Assembly (NCBI GenBank): GCA_003023695.1
Contig: PXYW01000006.1
Location: 1-64,000 of the forward strand
Direction: 5' to 3'
DNA: 64,000 bases
Source: Sulfobacillus benefaciens
GTDB taxonomy: Bacteria > Bacillota > Sulfobacillia > Sulfobacillales > Sulfobacillaceae
Part shown: positions 1 through 9,424 of the stretch, piece by piece
How the letters are laid out: the number at the start of each line of letters is the position of its first letter
Position numbering within the stretch: the stretch's first letter is position 1
Notes under the pieces: model-generated
The model's database searches: none
Told to the model about the DNA's origin: nothing
Seen by the model: only the letters and a program-made list of their open reading frames with translations
Translations under genes and position numbers: made by a program

Positions 1-2
1 AA

Positions 3-24
3 ACGGGCCGCAGACGGGCCGCAG
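3..24. repeat. Tandem 11-bp direct repeat
   Basis: Two exact adjacent copies of ACGGGCCGCAG lie at the extreme left edge of the window. They sit on the far side of the tRNA-Gln fragment, that is, on the presumed mobile-element side of the junction. With only two copies and no context to the left, no function can be given. Confidence 0.5.
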
Positions 25-147
25 AAACATCCAAAAACACCATGACGAGTCGTAACCGTTCATGACAGGATAATTTGGAGAATCGTATAACAACGCCATT
101 TTTCCGCAAATCAGAAGACGCTTTATGACGTAAAAACTCCCACTTTG

Positions 148-197
148 CGGGACTTTGGATCCCGCATGCGCAGGTTCGAGTCCTGCCTCCCCAGCCA
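148..197 (+). other. 3' half of tRNA-Gln(TTG), probable attachment-site remnant
   Basis: The anticodon arm CGGGA-CTTTGGA-TCCCG (148-164, anticodon TTG), the T-arm GCAGG-TTCGAGT-CCTGC (170-186), the 3' acceptor strand CTCCCCA and an encoded CCA end (197) are all present and fold correctly. The matching 5' acceptor strand (TGGGGAG) and any D-arm are missing from positions 1-147, so this is not a full tRNA. A copy running from the anticodon stem to CCA is what tyrosine-recombinase integration into a tRNA 3' end leaves at the distal attachment site. By that model the element lies to the left of 148 and the host chromosome resumes after 197. Recombination decay of an ordinary tRNA gene is the alternative. 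Confidence 0.8.
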
Positions 198-237: not shown

Positions 238-565
238 TTTTGCGCCCCCCACACGTGGTGTGCCTTATCTCTTCCTCTTTACACCAAACGAGACAAGCCA
301 TATCCCGGAGGGGTGCGATTTTCGATCGGGTCACGTGGGTTATCTCGAAGCCTTGCGCGAGTTGTTTATAGCCATTTCCTATCTGTCGTTTCACGGAAGG
401 GTAGGGTGCAATATCTTGAAAATCATTATGGTTATGCGGCATATGAAGCCCAGGAACAGCGTCCTTGCGTTTCGAGGCTATCTCTAAGGAAATTTTTGGT
501 CTCCGACGCTTTGAGAGGCAGGAATTGACCAAGTGCCTGGCGAACGGATTGACGGAGGAAATTAG
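238..565. other. Intergenic stretch, no gene recognised
   Basis: Open frames here (for example 145-528) begin inside the tRNA fragment and show no family resemblance or sensible ribosome binding site. No RNA element was recognised. Confidence 0.4.
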
Positions 566-637
566 ATGAGGGGAGTCACCATGGATCCGGAACTCACGGC
601 CTGTCAGGCTTCCGTGGCTGTCGATGAATTTTTATAG
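566..637 (+). CDS. 23-codon upstream ORF overlapping the acetyltransferase start
   Basis: An ATG at 566 lies five bases after a strong GGAGGAA site. It opens a 23-codon frame (begins MRGVTMDPEL, ends VAVDEFL) that stops at 637, 14 bases inside the start region of the acetyltransferase at 624. A second in-frame ATG at 581 has its own GGGGAG site. The downstream gene has no ribosome site of its own, so this could be a translational-coupling leader. It could instead be the true N-terminus of the acetyltransferase separated by a frameshift. Function is unknown. Confidence 0.35.
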   Translation: MRGVTMDPELTACQASVAVDEFL

Positions 638-1556
638 CGATCACATGAAAATGGCAGATGCCATAAAAATAAGTGGTTGGACCTATCCGCCCCCATACAA
701 TTTTTATGATATGGGGAAGACCGAAACATCGGTTGCGGAACTGTTATTTGACGGCTATCGGGCCGTGAGATGCGACAACGATCCTCTGGTGGGATTCTAT
801 TGTTTGGGTCAATCGGCCCAAGTTCCTGCGGGGCACCGATTTTCAGCCTATGATTCTGAAGGTCCGGTGATCGATATAGGGATAGGCATGCGCCCTGACC
901 TGACAGGGAAAGGACTTGGGGCGGAATTTTTAGATTTTGTGATGCGTGAAATACGGAGAAATTACCCAACTACCGCATTAAGGTTGACTGTTGCCTCATT
1001 TAACCAAAGAGCCGAGAAGCTGTATCGGAGGTTTGGGTTTCGTCCTCTGCATCAATTTGAAGCCAACGGCATTTGTTTTCGGGTCGAGTACTTCGAGGGT
1101 CGGTATCTAGGATACCTAAGACGGGCGACTTTTGATGATGAAAGGTATTTGGCTGACTGGCTTCGAGACCCTAAAGACTGCCATTGGGCTACAGGAACTC
1201 CCAATTTTTCTCATGAAGCTTATTTATCGTGGTGGCATGCCGCGGATCAGCACGGATGGATGCTGGATTCAACGATGGGACCTTTAGGATACGGAGAAAT
1301 ATGGGTCGATCCTCTGGAAGGTGATGTTGAACTGGCCCATTTGGTAGTAAACGCTGCACGACGTGGACAGGGAATCGGCCGACGATTAGTCGAAGCCCTA
1401 TATGATCAGGCCAACGATTATGGTTATCCTGTGACATACATGAGGGTACACCCTGACAATCAGGGTGCCCTCCATTGTTACCAATCCGTTGGATTTCAAG
1501 TTGTGAGAGAGACCCCTGGGGACTGGCCAGATCATTATGTATGGCTTAGGCGGTGA
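624..1556 (+). CDS. Tandem-domain GNAT N-acetyltransferase
   Basis: A 310-aa protein with two GCN5-type acetyltransferase domains. Domain 1 (about residues 10-140) carries the acetyl-CoA loop RPDLTGKGLG at 90-99 and the C-terminal FNQRAEKLYRRFGF signature. Domain 2 (about 165-310) carries RRGQGIGRR at 246-254 and DNQGALHCYQSVGF. Such proteins transfer acetyl from acetyl-CoA to a small-molecule or protein amine; the substrate cannot be read from sequence. The first ATG at 624 lacks a ribosome site, and an upstream 23-codon frame overlaps it, so initiation is either coupled or the N-terminus is misframed. It stands alone and converges on the menaquinone operon. Cytoplasmic, with no signal peptide. 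Confidence 0.85.
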   Translation: MNFYSDHMKMADAIKISGWTYPPPYNFYDMGKTETSVAELLFDGYRAVRCDNDPLVGFYCLGQSAQVPAGHRFSAYDSEGPVIDIGIGMRPDLTGKGLGAEFLDFVMREIRRNYPTTALRLTVASFNQRAEKLYRRFGFRPLHQFEANGICFRVEYFEGRYLGYLRRATFDDERYLADWLRDPKDCHWATGTPNFSHEAYLSWWHAADQHGWMLDSTMGPLGYGEIWVDPLEGDVELAHLVVNAARRGQGIGRRLVEALYDQANDYGYPVTYMRVHPDNQGALHCYQSVGFQVVRETPGDWPDHYVWLRR

Positions 1557-2029: not shown

Positions 2030-2911
2030 TTAATGCCCGATTCGACTCCACAAAATTCCAACGGTAATAAGAACGCCAAAAATAAGGTGGAGTCTTCCTA
2101 TAATGGGAACGGCCTTTCTTAGGGCATGGGGGGCTTGTAGTTGGCGAACCGTTAAAATGGCCAGCGGCAGGGCGATCCATATCACTAGCATTGCTAGGGG
2201 CAGGGCTTTCAGAATTACGGCACCAGTAATCCAAAGCAAAATTATCAAGACCATGGATTCCAAGACCTTAAAACCGCCGTCAATGCCGAGCACAATGGGA
2301 ATGGTTCGCCTTCCGTGTTGCGCGTCCTTGACGCGATCCCTAAGATTATTGGCTAACAAAATCGTGGCAACCGATATACCTACTGGCCAGGAGATAATCC
2401 ATGCGGTCGTTGTCATTTCTCCTGCCGCTGCATAGGTCGTGCCAAGCACCTCTAAAGGCCCCATGATTGTGAGTACCATTAATTCACCAAATGGCGTAGC
2501 GGAGATCGGGTAAGGACCGCCGGTATATAGAAACCCCCCTAAAATGGCTAAAAGTCCTATAATGAGCAAAATGTATCCGCGAAACCATACCAGTATCAAC
2601 CCTAGAATCAGGGCGATGCCATACAATAACAACGCACTGCGGAGTACGGCTTGTGGCGTTACTTCACCCGATACGATAATCCCTCCAATGCCAAGGGACT
2701 CAATCGTGTCTTCGCCTCGGCGCCAGTCAAAATATTCATTGAGCATGTTGGCGGCAATTTGCATGATAAATGCTATAGCCATCATATCTAGCCAACACCA
2801 CCAAACAAAATGGCCGGTGGTCCAGGCGATCGCTCCTCCTGCAAACAAGGGAACGACCGTTGCGGTTAAGGTTGGTGGTCGAGCCACGCGCATAAATTGC
2901 TGAACAGTCAC
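2030..2911 (-). CDS. menA: 1,4-dihydroxy-2-naphthoate polyprenyltransferase MenA
   Basis: MenA attaches the polyprenyl tail to 1,4-dihydroxy-2-naphthoate in the membrane, giving demethylmenaquinone. The 293-aa product has the UbiA-family layout of eight to nine hydrophobic helices. Both Asp-rich prenyl-diphosphate/Mg2+ motifs are visible: NEYFDWRRGED at 58-68 and NNLRDRVKDAQHGRRT at 188-203. The start is a GTG eight bases after AGAGGA. It follows menE by about 20 bases in the minus-strand operon menF-D-H-B-E-A. The menG methyltransferase needed for the last step is not in the window. Confidence 0.95.
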   Translation of the reverse strand: MTVQQFMRVARPPTLTATVVPLFAGGAIAWTTGHFVWWCWLDMMAIAFIMQIAANMLNEYFDWRRGEDTIESLGIGGIIVSGEVTPQAVLRSALLLYGIALILGLILVWFRGYILLIIGLLAILGGFLYTGGPYPISATPFGELMVLTIMGPLEVLGTTYAAAGEMTTTAWIISWPVGISVATILLANNLRDRVKDAQHGRRTIPIVLGIDGGFKVLESMVLIILLWITGAVILKALPLAMLVIWIALPLAILTVRQLQAPHALRKAVPIIGRLHLIFGVLITVGILWSRIGH

Positions 2912-2932
2912 TCTTGGAGTCCTCTTTCTTTA

Positions 2933-4447
2933 TTAAGGCAAGGAGAGCACATCGCCGCTTTGTATCGTATGCCGCACTACGTGCCGTTGCACCTTGCCAC
3001 TTGGTGTACGGGGTAAAACAGCCATCTTAAAGTAGACTGTAGGAATTTTATATCCTGCGAGCCTGTTCCGCAAGAAAGAGCGAAGTTCTTGCGATGTGAT
3101 GTCAGTCTGTGTCACAATGGCGGCGACAACTTGTTGTCCCCATTCCTCATCGGGAATTCCCACAACGCCGGCCTCTATTACCCCCGGGTGAGACATCAAC
3201 ACATGCTCCACTTCAGTAGGAGAAATATTTTCACCGCCGCGAATAATGATGTCGGTAAGACGGTCCTTGACGGTAAGCCAGCCATTTTGATCGACTACGC
3301 CAACATCTCTGGTATGGAGCCAACGTTGACCATTTTGCTCTGACAGCGACTCAGCCGTAGTTTCGGGAAGATGCCAATATCCTGCAAAAACCGAGGGGCC
3401 CGATATCCAAATTTCGCCTAATTCTCCCCGGGGCACTTCATGCCCCTGGGCATCTACAATGCGAATCGTAGTGGGGGAAATAGGGCAGCCTGAACTGCCT
3501 TTGGGTTCGTCTTGCCAGGGAATGAGGCCGGTCACGACTTGGGAGCATGTCTCCGTTAGGCCATAAGTAGTAACTACAGGGAGCCCAGATTTTCTGGCCC
3601 GCTGAACTAAATCCTGTGAGGCGGCAGCACCTCCCAGCAATATCATGCGTAGGTGTTGAGCATTTTCTTGGGCAAGACCATGGTCCAAAAGTCGCCATAG
3701 CATGGTAGGTACCAGGGAAGCCAGGGTTACCTGTTCCAATTGCAAGGCTTTTAAGGCGGTTTCGACATGAAATGGCGTCCGCATGACAATAGCACTGCCA
3801 TGAATAACGCTACGAAAGACGATAGATAATCCAGATACGTGAAACAGCGGCATGGCAAACAACCAACGATCTGCGGGTTGGGTCCCCATATGAATACCGC
3901 TAAATACGGCGCTCCAATAAAAGTTGCCGACGCGTAAAAGCGCTCCTTTAGGACGATTGGTAGTCCCCGAGGTATAAACCAAGGCAAGAATCCTATGTAA
4001 ATCCACCTCGGGGACTGACACCAAATCTTGCGGCTCCTCGGGAAGATTAGTTATCGCCATACGTTGGGACATACTGCCAATCGATGACAAGTCCACAGTT
4101 AAGCCAGACGAATCATACACGAGCAGCGCTGGCTGGGCGTCTAGCCAGCGCCATTGGAGTTCGGGTACGGTCAATTTTGGATCCAGAGGAACCAAAATGG
4201 CTTTCAGTCGCATTATCGCGTGAATTAAGGCGATAGCCCTTGCGCTCGGGAATCCAATCCAGGCAATACGGTCTCCCGGACCTATCCCCGCGGCCGATAG
4301 CTTGCGTATCAACTGACCGCTGGCAATGTCCAACTGTAAAAATGTCCAGCGAGTGGTGCCGTCGTCAATGGCGAGGGCATGAGGCCTGGAAAGAGCCTGT
4401 GTCCTCAGCCAGTCTGGTGTTTTCTCAATCGCTGACGATGTGTTCAT
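2933..4447 (-). CDS. menE: o-Succinylbenzoate-CoA ligase MenE
   Basis: A 504-aa member of the ANL adenylating superfamily that activates o-succinylbenzoate to its CoA thioester using ATP. The P-loop-like motif [14 protein letters not shown] is at 158-170, the adenylate-binding [11 protein letters not shown] motif is mid-protein, [13 protein letters not shown] and the WLHTRDVG hinge follow, and the catalytic lysine motif TPSGKVQRH is near the C-terminus. Its ATG overlaps the menB stop in an ATGA arrangement, so translation is coupled. Its position between menB and menA supports this substrate over other acids accepted by ANL enzymes. Confidence 0.94.
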
Positions 4448-5271
4448 GGGAGTCTGGGAAATTTTGCGAAATTTGGCGCCCGCTTTTCCAAATAGGCATT
4501 TTTCCCTTCTTTGGCTTCTTCGGTCATGTAGTAGAGCATCGTCGCATTGCCCGCGAGCTCTTGGAGCCCTGCTAAGCCGTCGGTGTCGGCATTAAATGCC
4601 GACTTAAGAAACCGTAAGGCAATGGGGCTCTTTTCCAATATTTCTTGGGCCCATTGCACTGCCGTGGCCTCTAAGTTCTCCAATGGCACCACCGTATTCA
4701 CCAAGCCCATGTCCAGCGCTTCTTGTGCATTGTATTGCCGACACAGATACCAGATTTCGCGAGCTTTTTTATGGCCCACGATTCTAGCTAATAGCGTGGA
4801 TCCATATCCTGCATCAAAACTTCCCACTTTGGGGCCGGTTTGGCCAAAAATCGCGTTGTCGGCGGCAATGGTCAGATCGCAGACGATGTGCAATACATGG
4901 CCTCCGCCAATGGCGTACCCAGCGACCATAGCGATAACAGGTTTTGGCAGGGCGCGGATTTGCTTTTGCAAGTCCAAGACATTAAGGCGTGGGATGCCAT
5001 TAGGATCCAGATATCCTCCGTCGCCGCGAATTCGCTGATCGCCGCCGGAACAAAACGCCTTATCACCCATTCCGGTAAATATTGCGACGCCGATGGCGGG
5101 GTTATCTCGTACCCAGTTAAAAGCGTCGGACAACTCAAAAAGGGTCTGAGGGCGAAATGCATTGCGGACTTCAGGCCGATTAATAGTTATCTTTGCAATA
5201 CCCTGGTATTGCTCTAAGATAACATCGGTGTAGTTCTTCACCAAGTTCCACGAAATATGAGACTGTGTCAT
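4444..5271 (-). CDS. menB: 1,4-Dihydroxy-2-naphthoyl-CoA synthase MenB
   Basis: A 275-aa crotonase-fold enzyme that ring-closes o-succinylbenzoyl-CoA to 1,4-dihydroxy-2-naphthoyl-CoA. The oxyanion-hole segments NRPEVRNAF (31-39), CSGGDQ (74-79) and GYAIGGGH (118-125) are present, as is the MenB signature [15 protein letters not shown] (144-158). The glycine in QTG at this site, rather than aspartate, is the pattern I associate with bicarbonate-dependent (type I) MenB enzymes. The C-terminal [13 protein letters not shown] tail is also typical. It starts at ATG 5271 behind AAGGAA and overlaps menE. Confidence 0.95.
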
Positions 5272-5276
5272 GAGAG

Positions 5277-6128
5277 TTAGTTCCTTTCGTCGATAAGATA
5301 TCGTTGTATAAACGGGTCCACAGCGGTGCGAAATGCCGGAGGTTGCTCGAGGTGCACATTATGGCCGGCAGAGCCTATTGAAACGGCTTGCGCATAGGGC
5401 CACTGTCTTTGCATGGCGGCGCTAATTGCGCAAAATTTTTCGTCAAGTGCCCCCGTTATTAAGAGGACAGGTACCCTGATGGTCTCTAGTTTATCCCATA
5501 GTGACTGTTGGGTCCCCGTTCCGGCCGCCCTTAGGCTTTGGGCTAATCCGCGAGGATCTTGCCTGAAACGTCTTTGCCTCACTTGTTCTCGGACTGACGG
5601 TGGCAAACGGCTTTGACTGGAAAACAGGGGAAGTGCACCCCAGTATGAAACAAACCATTCAATTCCCCGTTCTTGGATCTGGTCAGCCAATTGGTTGTCT
5701 TGCATCCGGCGTGACTCTCGTTCTTGGGGATCATGGATCCCCGGTGAGGTACTTTCCAATACCATACAGGAGAGGGTGCTTCCTGCAACAAGACTCAAAT
5801 GAAGCGCCACACGGCCGCCGAACGAGTACCCTAAAACCCCATATTGCTGGATATTCAACCCTGACATTAAGGCCTGTAGCGCCGATGCGGTTTCGACTAG
5901 CGACATATCCCGAGGGGTGGGTAACCATGGACTTAGACCGTGGCCGGGAAGATCCGGTGTGATGACAAAGTACCGGGTAGCCCATAGTCTTGCGTAAAAC
6001 TCCCAGTCGTAAGCGGTTCCGAAAAAACCATGCAAAAGCAGAAGAGCTGGATTGTCTGGAAGACCCCATGCATAATAGGCTAAAACCAAATTCCGGACTG
6101 TAATATATTTAGCACTAGAAGTGGCCAT
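5277..6128 (-). CDS. menH: MenH-like alpha/beta hydrolase (SHCHC synthase)
   Basis: A 283-aa alpha/beta hydrolase. From ATG 6128 the oxyanion segment [12 protein letters not shown] is at 31-42, the nucleophile elbow GYSFGG at 100-105 (Ser102), with a late Asp in TGALDEKF and His in [12 protein letters not shown]. MenH removes pyruvate from SEPHCHC to give SHCHC in menaquinone synthesis. A longer frame runs to 6200, but ATG 6128 overlaps menD by 14 bases and aligns better with the family N-terminus. It sits between menD and menB, as in many Firmicutes. No menC (o-succinylbenzoate synthase) is in the window, so that step is encoded elsewhere. Confidence 0.88.
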
Positions 6129-7881
6129 GTGACAGGACCTCCCCGATACGTTGCGCGGTATCCAAATGCCAACGTCGATTCTCTTCACGAGAAGGAACAA
6201 TCCATTCCAAAATTCTTAGTCCTCGCAACTGCTGCAAATCTTCCAGATATTGTTTTAAGTCTGACGCACTAGTAGCTCGGCGGAATTCTGCACGGTAAAG
6301 AGAAGCTGCATGGGATAAATCGAGATCCAGCGGTGTGCCAAAATAGGCCTCGAACACGTCGGGCGCTAATTGTTCGTGTTGTGGCAGAAAGGAGAATATG
6401 CCACCACCGTGGTTGTTAATCACAATAATTAGGGCACTTAATCCGAATTTTAGTGCTGCAAGTAACCCGTTCATGTCGTGATAAAAGGCCAAATCACCAA
6501 TGATCAGGAGAACATCACCAAAGTGGGATGATAATCCGAGGGCGGTTGAGGTTACCCCATCAATGCCGTTGGCCCCCCGATTGGCGAAAAATCGGAGATG
6601 GGGAGATCCTGTCGGAAGATACGTGTCTAAGTCCCGTACTGGCATGCTGTTGCTTACCATAACTGGCAAGGGACGAGGTTGATGTGTGGAAAGCCATTGG
6701 TCCAAGTTGCCAAAAAGTTGGGGCTCAGCGTTCGGTGGCTGTTGAGTCAATACCTCGGGCAGTGCTGCCGTCACTTGCTGATGCGCCTCCCGCCATTGGG
6801 AGATCCACTGGGGATCGCCGTGGTACCTAGCTGGCGGATCTAATAGGGCTCTGAGTGACTCAGAAATATCGCCACCGAGCAGAACGAGGTCCTGACTGTT
6901 GGGATCCAATCCCTGGGGTGCAGGCTCTAAAAGCAGGCCCGGTAACCCATGTATTAATTGATTCAACGATTTAGAAGTGGGGATGGCGCCTATCCTGATT
7001 ACCACTTCCGGAGCAGGCGCCGGATGGTGTTTCAGCAGGAGGTCATAGGAACCAATAACGCCAGGGATATGCCGCATGTTGGCAAGAATATCTGCAAAGA
7101 CTGGCCAGCCCCAACGATTGGCCCACGACAACACAAGGTCCGCTGGTATTTCTTCAGTTTCCTGGCCTACCACCACGATTCCTCGTGAAAACTGGCCTAA
7201 AAACTCCTTGGCATCCGCCAAAGACCGTTGGGGGACCGTTAAGATGGGATGCGTAATGGGCGATGGCTGAACGGAAATCCCGCTATGAGACCATTTGGGC
7301 AATAGAGGTTCGCGAAAGGGAAAATTGAGGTGAACCGGCCCGGGCCGTGTGTCTCCCGCACATTGTAAAGCCCTAGCAACTTGAGAACGCACGTATCTTA
7401 TCACTTCTATCGTGGCTTCGGGGCTTGGCAGATCCTTAAAGAACTTGACATGGGATCCGTAGAGTTCAACCTGGTCGATCGTTTGACTGGCCCCAACCCC
7501 TCTAAGTTCGCGAGGGCGGTCAGCCGTAAGTACAATTAATGGGACGTGGCTCAATGAAGCCTCCACCACAGCGGGCAACAAATTTGCGGCGGCGGTTCCC
7601 GATGTTACCACGACGGCGACTGGCTGTTTCAATGCTTTGGCTAAACCTAAGGCGAAGAATCCGGCCGACCTTTCATCGACAAGAACATGGACCTTGATTC
7701 CGGCATGGTGGTGTAGGGCAAGAGTTAGGGGCGTGGATCGCGAACCTGGGCAGACGACTGCTTGAGCAACTCCTCCGGCTGCTAACTGCATCACCACAGT
7801 GTTCAAGTACCATGCCAGAGGATCAATATTTACAGTAGCTCCCCAACGTTCATCGCTTCCAACATCGACCGAAGTTTCCAT
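6115..7881 (-). CDS. menD: SEPHCHC synthase MenD
   Basis: A 588-aa thiamine-diphosphate enzyme that adds 2-oxoglutarate (as succinic semialdehyde) to isochorismate. The N-terminal PYR domain shows VCPGSRSTPLTLALHHH and DERSAGFFALGLAKA; the C-terminal ThDP/Mg2+ motif is GDLAFYHDMNGLL with the paired INNHGGG. The frame is open to 8040, but METSVDVG at 7881 has a perfect GGAGGAG six bases upstream and gives the usual family length. The start lies 52 bases inside menF, so the two are translationally linked. Confidence 0.94.
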   Translation of the reverse strand: METSVDVGSDERWGATVNIDPLAWYLNTVVMQLAAGGVAQAVVCPGSRSTPLTLALHHHAGIKVHVLVDERSAGFFALGLAKALKQPVAVVVTSGTAAANLLPAVVEASLSHVPLIVLTADRPRELRGVGASQTIDQVELYGSHVKFFKDLPSPEATIEVIRYVRSQVARALQCAGDTRPGPVHLNFPFREPLLPKWSHSGISVQPSPITHPILTVPQRSLADAKEFLGQFSRGIVVVGQETEEIPADLVLSWANRWGWPVFADILANMRHIPGVIGSYDLLLKHHPAPAPEVVIRIGAIPTSKSLNQLIHGLPGLLLEPAPQGLDPNSQDLVLLGGDISESLRALLDPPARYHGDPQWISQWREAHQQVTAALPEVLTQQPPNAEPQLFGNLDQWLSTHQPRPLPVMVSNSMPVRDLDTYLPTGSPHLRFFANRGANGIDGVTSTALGLSSHFGDVLLIIGDLAFYHDMNGLLAALKFGLSALIIVINNHGGGIFSFLPQHEQLAPDVFEAYFGTPLDLDLSHAASLYRAEFRRATSASDLKQYLEDLQQLRGLRILEWIVPSREENRRWHLDTAQRIGEVLSHGHF

Positions 7882-9209
7882 TGTGACTCCTCCCATTCCT
7901 CGTCCGGATTTGACTGGGCCATGATACCGCAGCCGCCAAATAGTGTGGCTTGTTGGCCTTCGATTAAAGCAGAGCGCAACGCCACCAGTAACTGCCCTTG
8001 GCCCTTTAAGGACACATGGCCAATAATGCCCGAGTACCATCCGCGATCGAAAGGTTCATGCTGCATAATCCAGTGGATAGCAGCGGACGGAGGCAACCCT
8101 CCAACTGCCGGAGTAGGCTGAAGGGCTTCTGCTACCGACCAAAACGACGAACCCGAAGGTAATGTGGCCGTAATGGGGGTGAATAGATGCTGCACTGTGG
8201 GCAGTTGCTTTATTCGTGGCTCCTTCGAATATTTGACTGTGCATCCTAATTTTTGCAAAATGCTTAAGATATGGCGTTTGACGGCTTCGTGTTCTTCTCG
8301 GTTCTTGGCATGGCGTAATAATGCTTGGGCATTTAAGGAATCCTCGGCAGCCGTCTTGCCCCGGGGGGCAGATCCTGCCAGTGCCATGGTGGACACAAAT
8401 GGCTCATGGGTTTCCAGTAGGATTTCTGGTGTGGCACCCAAAAAAGTCCGCGATTGCAGGCGCAAGGCAAATATTTTGGAAGATGGATTTCTCTGGCTTA
8501 ATTGATGAAGTATGGGACTGGTTTTCACATTGGCAGAAAAGTTGGCAGTTACGGCTCGAGCTACTACCACTTTACTTAACTGCTGGGCTTTGATGGCACT
8601 GACAGCGTCTGCAATAAGGTGGTTCCATTGATCGCGATTTGGTGTACTCAAGTGGTGAATCAGTCGAGGCAAAGTATCAGGGTCTGGGTGCGGTGCCGAA
8701 ATCCTATCAAGCAATTCTTGGTAATAATTGATCACCGGATTTAGAGGTAAGTTCCCATCGATTTCGGCTACCAATCGTGCCAGAATGCCATTAGACACTG
8801 GTTGCATCATGATAGCCGGCAATGTCCAAGCCATACGGGGAAATGCACCCCAGGGTTTGGTGTGCCCCATGTCGTCAACAGAAAAGGCGACTCCTCCACC
8901 GACCTGCAAGTCTGGTGGCAGCGTGTTTTCGGATATTAAGCGCTCCCAGTCTACCTTCCAGTCGGCCCAGGCCTGAGGACCGTGGTAAGTCCAACGACGC
9001 GCCACTCCTACCCCGACTGACTGAGTATTTTGGTCGGAAAATACCCAGATATCCTCAAATTCATCCACAAGTGACAAAATATCAATCCATGGCAGGTCCA
9101 AATCCGTTGTCACCCACGTGGATGTGCCCTGGCGTCGTGCCTTGCGCCATGCCTCATAAAAATGATCGGCAATTTTGGTTCGATAAAATCCCACTGAATG
9201 CGTGTTCAT
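7830..9209 (-). CDS. menF: Isochorismate synthase MenF
   Basis: A chorismate-binding enzyme that converts chorismate to isochorismate, the first committed step to menaquinone. The C-terminal domain has LSKVVVARAV (catalytic Lys region), FLGATPEILLE, LAGSAPRGK and PTPAVGGLPPSAA followed by EPFDRGWYSG, all standard for MenF/EntC. The frame can be read from a TTG at 9263, but the ATG at 9209 (MNTHSVGFYR), with AAAGGAA about 15 bases upstream, is preferred; length is then 459 aa. First gene of the seven-gene minus-strand operon. No convincing promoter was found upstream, where a decayed insertion sequence now lies. Confidence 0.92.
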   Translation of the reverse strand: MNTHSVGFYRTKIADHFYEAWRKARRQGTSTWVTTDLDLPWIDILSLVDEFEDIWVFSDQNTQSVGVGVARRWTYHGPQAWADWKVDWERLISENTLPPDLQVGGGVAFSVDDMGHTKPWGAFPRMAWTLPAIMMQPVSNGILARLVAEIDGNLPLNPVINYYQELLDRISAPHPDPDTLPRLIHHLSTPNRDQWNHLIADAVSAIKAQQLSKVVVARAVTANFSANVKTSPILHQLSQRNPSSKIFALRLQSRTFLGATPEILLETHEPFVSTMALAGSAPRGKTAAEDSLNAQALLRHAKNREEHEAVKRHILSILQKLGCTVKYSKEPRIKQLPTVQHLFTPITATLPSGSSFWSVAEALQPTPAVGGLPPSAAIHWIMQHEPFDRGWYSGIIGHVSLKGQGQLLVALRSALIEGQQATLFGGCGIMAQSNPDEEWEESQWKLRSMLEAMNVGELL

Positions 9210-9424
9210 ATTGTTATGATAAGATTCCTTTGCGAAGAAATCAATGGTGTGCCACGGGTTCAACCCCTAGTCATGCCCTAAAGTTGCATCTTCACTCATC
9301 TATCGAACTCCGCCCACTTTAGGTGGGTGGTGAATGGGCGGCGGGTAAGCCCGGTCGTTTTGTAGCAATTTGCCAAAATTTGCTGTAAAATATAATTAGT
9401 ATCCTCAACGAATGCCTTGGTGTT

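Follow-up and report, generated by a model that had tools for sequence, protein, structure and literature searches.

A displaced tRNA-Gln 3' end as the probable junction of an integrated mobile element in Sulfobacillus benefaciens

Introduction

The closest described systems to the locus analyzed here are the tRNA-gene islands collected in Islander, for which the part of that description used here gives 3' fragments in 3760 of 3919 islands and anticodon-centred sites in 2083 (PMC4383910). The window, by which we mean the whole 64,000-nucleotide stretch of Sulfobacillus benefaciens DNA under analysis, has in common with those islands, as far as that part describes them, a displaced 3' tDNA fragment, a tyrosine integrase and an anticodon-centred site (PMC4383910). 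It also resembles the PYG1 island of Pyrococcus yayanosii, an element which, in the section of the report drawn on here, lies between a partial and a complete Gln-TTG gene (PMC9897764). A search of literature titles returned none on a tRNA-Gln element in Sulfobacillus. We conclude, with little doubt, that positions 148-197 of the window are a displaced tRNA-Gln(TTG) 3' end and that they mark the downstream boundary of a mobile element integrated there. The fragment is an ordinary attachment-site scar left by integration, a very common type of event.

Results

The window is contig C136, read from its base 1, of a draft assembly of 4.1 Mb in 179 contigs. The features on which the analysis rests are as follows.

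1-45, plus strand: 3' end of a tyrosine integrase gene, 14 codons (KRAADGPQKHPKTP) and the stop, cut by the contig start; 44 of 45 bases shared with genome G006
46-147, plus strand: element DNA from the integrase stop to the tRNA core (attP arm); aligns with the same interval of G006 and G001
148-197, plus strand: very probably the displaced 3' part of tRNA-Gln(TTG), positions 27-76, an attR-type attachment-site copy; 50/50 to four relatives, Rfam 23.9 bits
198-240, plus strand: terminator-like hairpin and T-run, as downstream of tRNA-Gln in relatives; identical sequence follows the intact genes of G003, G041 and others
476-608, plus strand: older-element remnant, with the leader and first codons of the small MDPEL gene found ahead of the G001 integrase; 83% to G001
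624-1556, plus strand: GNAT acetyltransferase gene, right flank; Pfam PF00583, with an 82% identical gene after the intact tRNA-Gln of G003
2030-9263, minus strand: men-type cluster (UbiA, AMP-binding, ECH, TPP enzyme, chorismate-binding), right chromosomal flank; Pfam, same order in G003 and G015

The bases at 148-197 are exactly tRNA-Gln(TTG) positions 27-76, CCA included, and the 5' half is missing. They run in order through the anticodon arm with its TTG (CGGGA, CTTTGGA, TCCCG), the variable loop (CATGC), the T-arm (GCAGG, TTCGAGT, CCTGC), the 3' acceptor strand (CTCCCCA), the discriminator (G) and CCA. Compared with the intact tRNA-Gln(TTG) genes of six relatives, the fragment is identical at 50 of 50 bases in four and at 49 of 50 in two, and chance is ruled out as the source of this match. 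Of the 26 bases preceding it, 5 agree with the tRNA 5' half, and tRNA position 26 is G at the fragment and A in the intact genes of the relatives. The Rfam tRNA score of 148-197, 23.9 bits, is below the gathering score of 29, and ARAGORN calls no tRNA gene in the window. An earlier sequence-only reading had claimed a tRNA-Gln 3' half here, with anticodon arm, T-arm and CCA and without a 5' half, broken at the anticodon stem; the half proved correct to the base, and the break falls at position 27, the 5' edge of that stem. A displaced tDNA end fragment at one junction, as expected of a tRNA-targeted integrative element, is thus present (148-197, 50/50). The bases that follow it (201-240) have a fold energy of -10.3 kcal/mol.

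In G006, a complete integrase of 397 aa closes with the same residues as positions 1-45 encode and with 44 of the 45 bases; the end of the G001 integrase is 95.6% identical. The window thus starts within an integrase gene, oriented in the direction of the fragment. The G006 gene ends about 100 bp ahead of a tRNA-Gln 3' fragment. Complete PF00589 integrases stand at the corresponding place in G006 and S. harzensis; in the window this place holds 14 codons and a stop only. The attP arm at 46-147 aligns less well with the intervals of further relatives, with a ACGCCATTTT block in common. By sequence, the G006 protein matches solved integrases that we take to be of the lambda and Tn916 types, and R211, K249, H326, R329, H352 and Y362, presumably the catalytic positions of a tyrosine integrase, are kept in four aligned integrases (G006, G003 and two of G004).

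To compare occupied and empty sites, 34 genomes of the family were surveyed for the tRNA-Gln 3' half. The pattern was found at 37 places and gave no match in three of the 34 genomes. The same truncated tRNA in all relatives, with no element, would have spoken against integration, but the survey does not bear this out, as the 37 places comprise 27 intact genes and 10 fragments. An integrase match lies just upstream of six of the 10 fragments (G006, G001, G004, G033 and two in G041), and the window is the seventh by virtue of its 45 bases; no integrase match was found at the three others, in G032, in G045 and in G009, where the contig ends after 8 bases. Upstream of the intact genes there was no integrase match in any of the 27 (about 1.5 kb covered for most, less than 350 bases in G033, G034, G002 and G017), and integrase remnants lie downstream of the intact gene in G005, G014 and G040. 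G003 and G015, the strains without an element that the sequence-only reading had called for, carry an uninterrupted site in the order ABC-transporter gene, intact tRNA-Gln, a GNAT gene in G003, small membrane protein and men genes. Both junctions are seen in G004, where the ABC gene and an intact tRNA-Gln are on contig C11 and a decayed integrase, the fragment and the men genes on C33. The regenerated intact tDNA is present in G004, on a separate contig beside the expected left flank, and absent from the draft of the window's genome. In G001 and G006 the order is integrase, fragment, some kilobases of other DNA and men genes. Together, the integrase end at 1-45, the uninterrupted sites and the paired junctions of G004 bear out the earlier prediction of an element on the left; that reading had also placed an integrase beside an intact tRNA, and here an integrase does lie near the junction, with the fragment and not the intact tRNA as its neighbor.

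The integrase of G004 is decayed and that of G001 is interrupted, implying that these two elements may be immobile. In G001 near-identical insertions, each roughly 420 bp long and bounded by inverted ends of 29 bp, break two different integrase genes (L084 1335-1753 and L128 1504-1233) at one shared conserved codon; this MITE-like element seems to prefer the integrase H-x-x-R-H motif. An Rfam search detected no intron that might account for the break in the G001 integrase and matched only a piece of a group II intron in G004, a domain match of 94.4 bits upstream of the decayed integrase (G004:C33, L090 3356-3475). G003 has a second intact tRNA-Gln(TTG), at about 11003 of L088 (G003:C104), which is away from the men locus and has a changed acceptor strand.

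Because C136 begins at window base 1, DNA further left cannot be read on it, and we searched the rest of the assembly. At up to 3 mismatches the assembly contains neither a second T-arm-to-CCA half of tRNA-Gln(TTG) nor its 5' half, and the only tRNA-Gln among the tRNA loci scanned with ARAGORN has the anticodon CTG. CAA codons are common (54 CAA to 31 CAG in five window genes), from which it follows that an intact tRNA-Gln(TTG) would have to sit outside the assembled contigs. The integrase body and the cargo of the window's element were not found in the assembly either and, since the intact tRNA is likewise absent, the element is visible by its last 147 bases alone. The end of another contig of the same genome, C141, carries the left flank, with TM, CBS and ABC genes and one that we take to be of BNR type. 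C141 stops 104 bp past the ABC start, and in G003 the tRNA starts 191 bp past the ABC start; C141 thus ends about 90 bp short of the expected tRNA-Gln start, and most likely the assembly has a gap where the element and the rebuilt tRNA belong. C141 and C136 would then be adjacent, with the far end and most of the element in the gap between them. Near-identical integrase ends among elements may have caused the contig break at the start of C136.

Other contigs of the genome were considered as well. C19, which starts in a broken tyrosine recombinase, was rejected as the left neighbor because that recombinase adjoins a large transposase-like gene (presumably Tn3-type) and does not match the G006 integrase at an E-value of 1e-5, and C108 holds only distant integrase pieces (50% and 38%), away from the contig end. 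C27 starts (L071) within the anticodon loop of a tRNA-Arg(TCT) 3' half (1-41, Rfam 24.3 bits, cut at the 5' side); beyond it come an HTH-type gene and genes for DUF927 and actin-like (ALP_N) proteins. This start probably marks an end of another element, inserted in tRNA-Arg and likewise broken by the assembly. Two further places (G000:C143 6134-6275 and G000:C163 778-919) each show a pair of weak tRNA-like matches of 28.9-38.8 bits, at which ARAGORN calls no tRNA.

To the right of the fragment the sequence-only reading had placed the chromosome with its men operon, and the men genes do stand at 2030-9263, in a cluster that we take to be MenA/E/B/D/F; the DNA before them is not purely chromosomal, given the older-element remnant at 476-608. 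Pfam backs the names GNAT, UbiA, AMP-binding, ECH, TPP enzyme, chorismate-binding, ABC and CBS. The remnant aligns with G001 L084 10100-10230 at 83% over 135 columns and more weakly with the other two G001 copies. Of the MDPEL genes in G001, one stands directly ahead of the integrase and another two lie between the fragment and GNAT, and the tRNA-Gln/men site has probably been used more than once. The MDPEL gene is small and coiled-coil-like with a conserved leader (G001 copies at L084 85-342, 6195-6497 and 10203-10844), and window 581-637 keeps only its start.

Relatives of the integrase were sought beyond this site. Scanning named genomes with a four-sequence integrase profile gave 153 relatives and 80 kept loci, of which we examined 32, made up of the first 30 in the list plus two others. 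Sulfobacillus or Bacillota appears in the titles of 28 of these 32, and seven coincide with contigs already described from G004, G006, G033 and G041. A tRNA 3' half lies within 400-500 bases after the integrase at 20 of the 32 loci, with none at 12. The target is tRNA-Gln at five loci (integrase identity 75-100%), Arg(TCT) at two, Val(GAC) at two and Lys(CTT) at one, and weaker matches point to Lys, Arg(CCT), Arg(ACG) and Met at one each. Six more integrases stand beside a tRNA-Sec 3' half, called from its anticodon TCA; the blastn reference set had no tRNA-Sec, so these six matched a Thr T-arm only, and one of them (L116) scores 43.8 bits as Rfam tRNA-Sec, below the gathering score of 47. Integrases beside 3' halves of other tRNAs were counted as support for integration.

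The integrase tree has 24 rows, 22 of them different, with the decayed Gln rows L190 and L193 left out and stops in L178, L194 and L196 read as X; the position of L179 carries no meaning, as this row was translated in a single frame across frameshifts. Four Gln integrases form one clade (100/99) and two Val integrases another (98/99), and the Sec target needs two changes. All tRNA labels together need 9 changes, compared with a mean of 15.1 for shuffled labels, and none of 200 shuffles was as low. On balance it seems somewhat more likely than not that a single integrase family, found in Sulfobacillus and its relatives, has come to use five or more kinds of tRNA gene (Gln, Sec, Arg, Val, Lys) and breaks them in the anticodon arm; the target mostly follows the integrase clade, and Sec was apparently reached twice.

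Discussion

The preferred explanation would run as follows. The attP of the element would carry a copy of the tRNA 3' half, and the tyrosine integrase whose end lies at 1-45 would recombine it with the chromosomal tRNA-Gln between the ABC-transporter gene and the men genes, with strand exchange presumably in the anticodon-arm region. The element's copy would then complete tRNA-Gln at the far end, as predicted for the window's genome, and the original 3' half with its terminator would remain at the near end. For this genome, we infer the activity of the integrase and the size and cargo of the element.

The main competitor is a decayed remnant, in which most of the element has been deleted, leaving the integrase tail and the fragment, with a working tRNA-Gln nearby in the gap. 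The decayed or interrupted integrases at this site in G004, G001 and G041:C100 and the older debris right of the fragment fit such a history, but the 15 visible codons, sense and stop together, are intact at 44 of 45 bases to a complete gene and nothing visible is decayed; we consider it possible though the less probable outcome. An artifact of assembly is far less likely: the fragment lies 147 bases from a contig end in a 179-contig draft, where a chimeric joint could arise, yet the integrase end, about 100 bp, the fragment and the men side recur in this order in G001, G004 and G006. The 3' half seen by itself could also suggest a split tRNA gene with its 5' half encoded elsewhere and joined later. 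This we rejected after searching the assembly for a 5' half, which is absent at up to 3 mismatches; moreover, G003 and G015 carry an undivided gene at this locus and the fragment has the end of an integrase gene next to it, leaving the idea next to no probability.

Integration at tRNA-Gln explains the absence of an essential tRNA gene from the draft by an assembly gap at the inserted element and not by odd biology, and it makes the tRNA-Gln/men locus a repeatedly used insertion site in Sulfobacillus-like bacteria. Only the integrase family is of interest beyond this one locus; if its clade-linked targets hold, it would offer a natural series for how a tyrosine integrase changes its tRNA target, and could serve work on specificity change.

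Other close systems are the element of S. harzensis DSM 109850 (NZ_JABBVZ010000077), whose integrase shares 80% identity with the G006 protein, and that of S. benefaciens AMDSBA1 (PXYT01000089), at 75%; in both, a tRNA-Gln 3' fragment lies about 100 bp past the integrase. Unlike in the window, men genes were not found in the stretches of these two records that were examined, and the two elements differ in cargo. Next to the junctions in S. harzensis and S. benefaciens are an AAA_25 ATPase, a DNA topoisomerase, a DUF3991 primase-like protein, a resolvase, an N6 methylase, HepT and TadE, which look plasmid- or island-like, and the AAA_25 contig G033:C151 would be the far end of the same element as the junction in G033. 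A PHROGs scan of 8 proteins of the relatives gave integrase, primase/helicase and regulator matches only. Plasmid and phage collections hold 429 and 2527 records with integrase matches, all below 60% identity, and the single G006 query found no relatives in viral contigs.

Relative to the Islander cases, as that part of the description presents them, the window differs in that its assembly lacks the intact tRNA and the integrase body and in that its integrase reads towards the fragment (PMC4383910). PYG1, in the section of the report drawn on here, is archaeal and spans about 21.4 kb between 44-bp repeats (PMC9897764), and its likeness to the window is one of insertion site.
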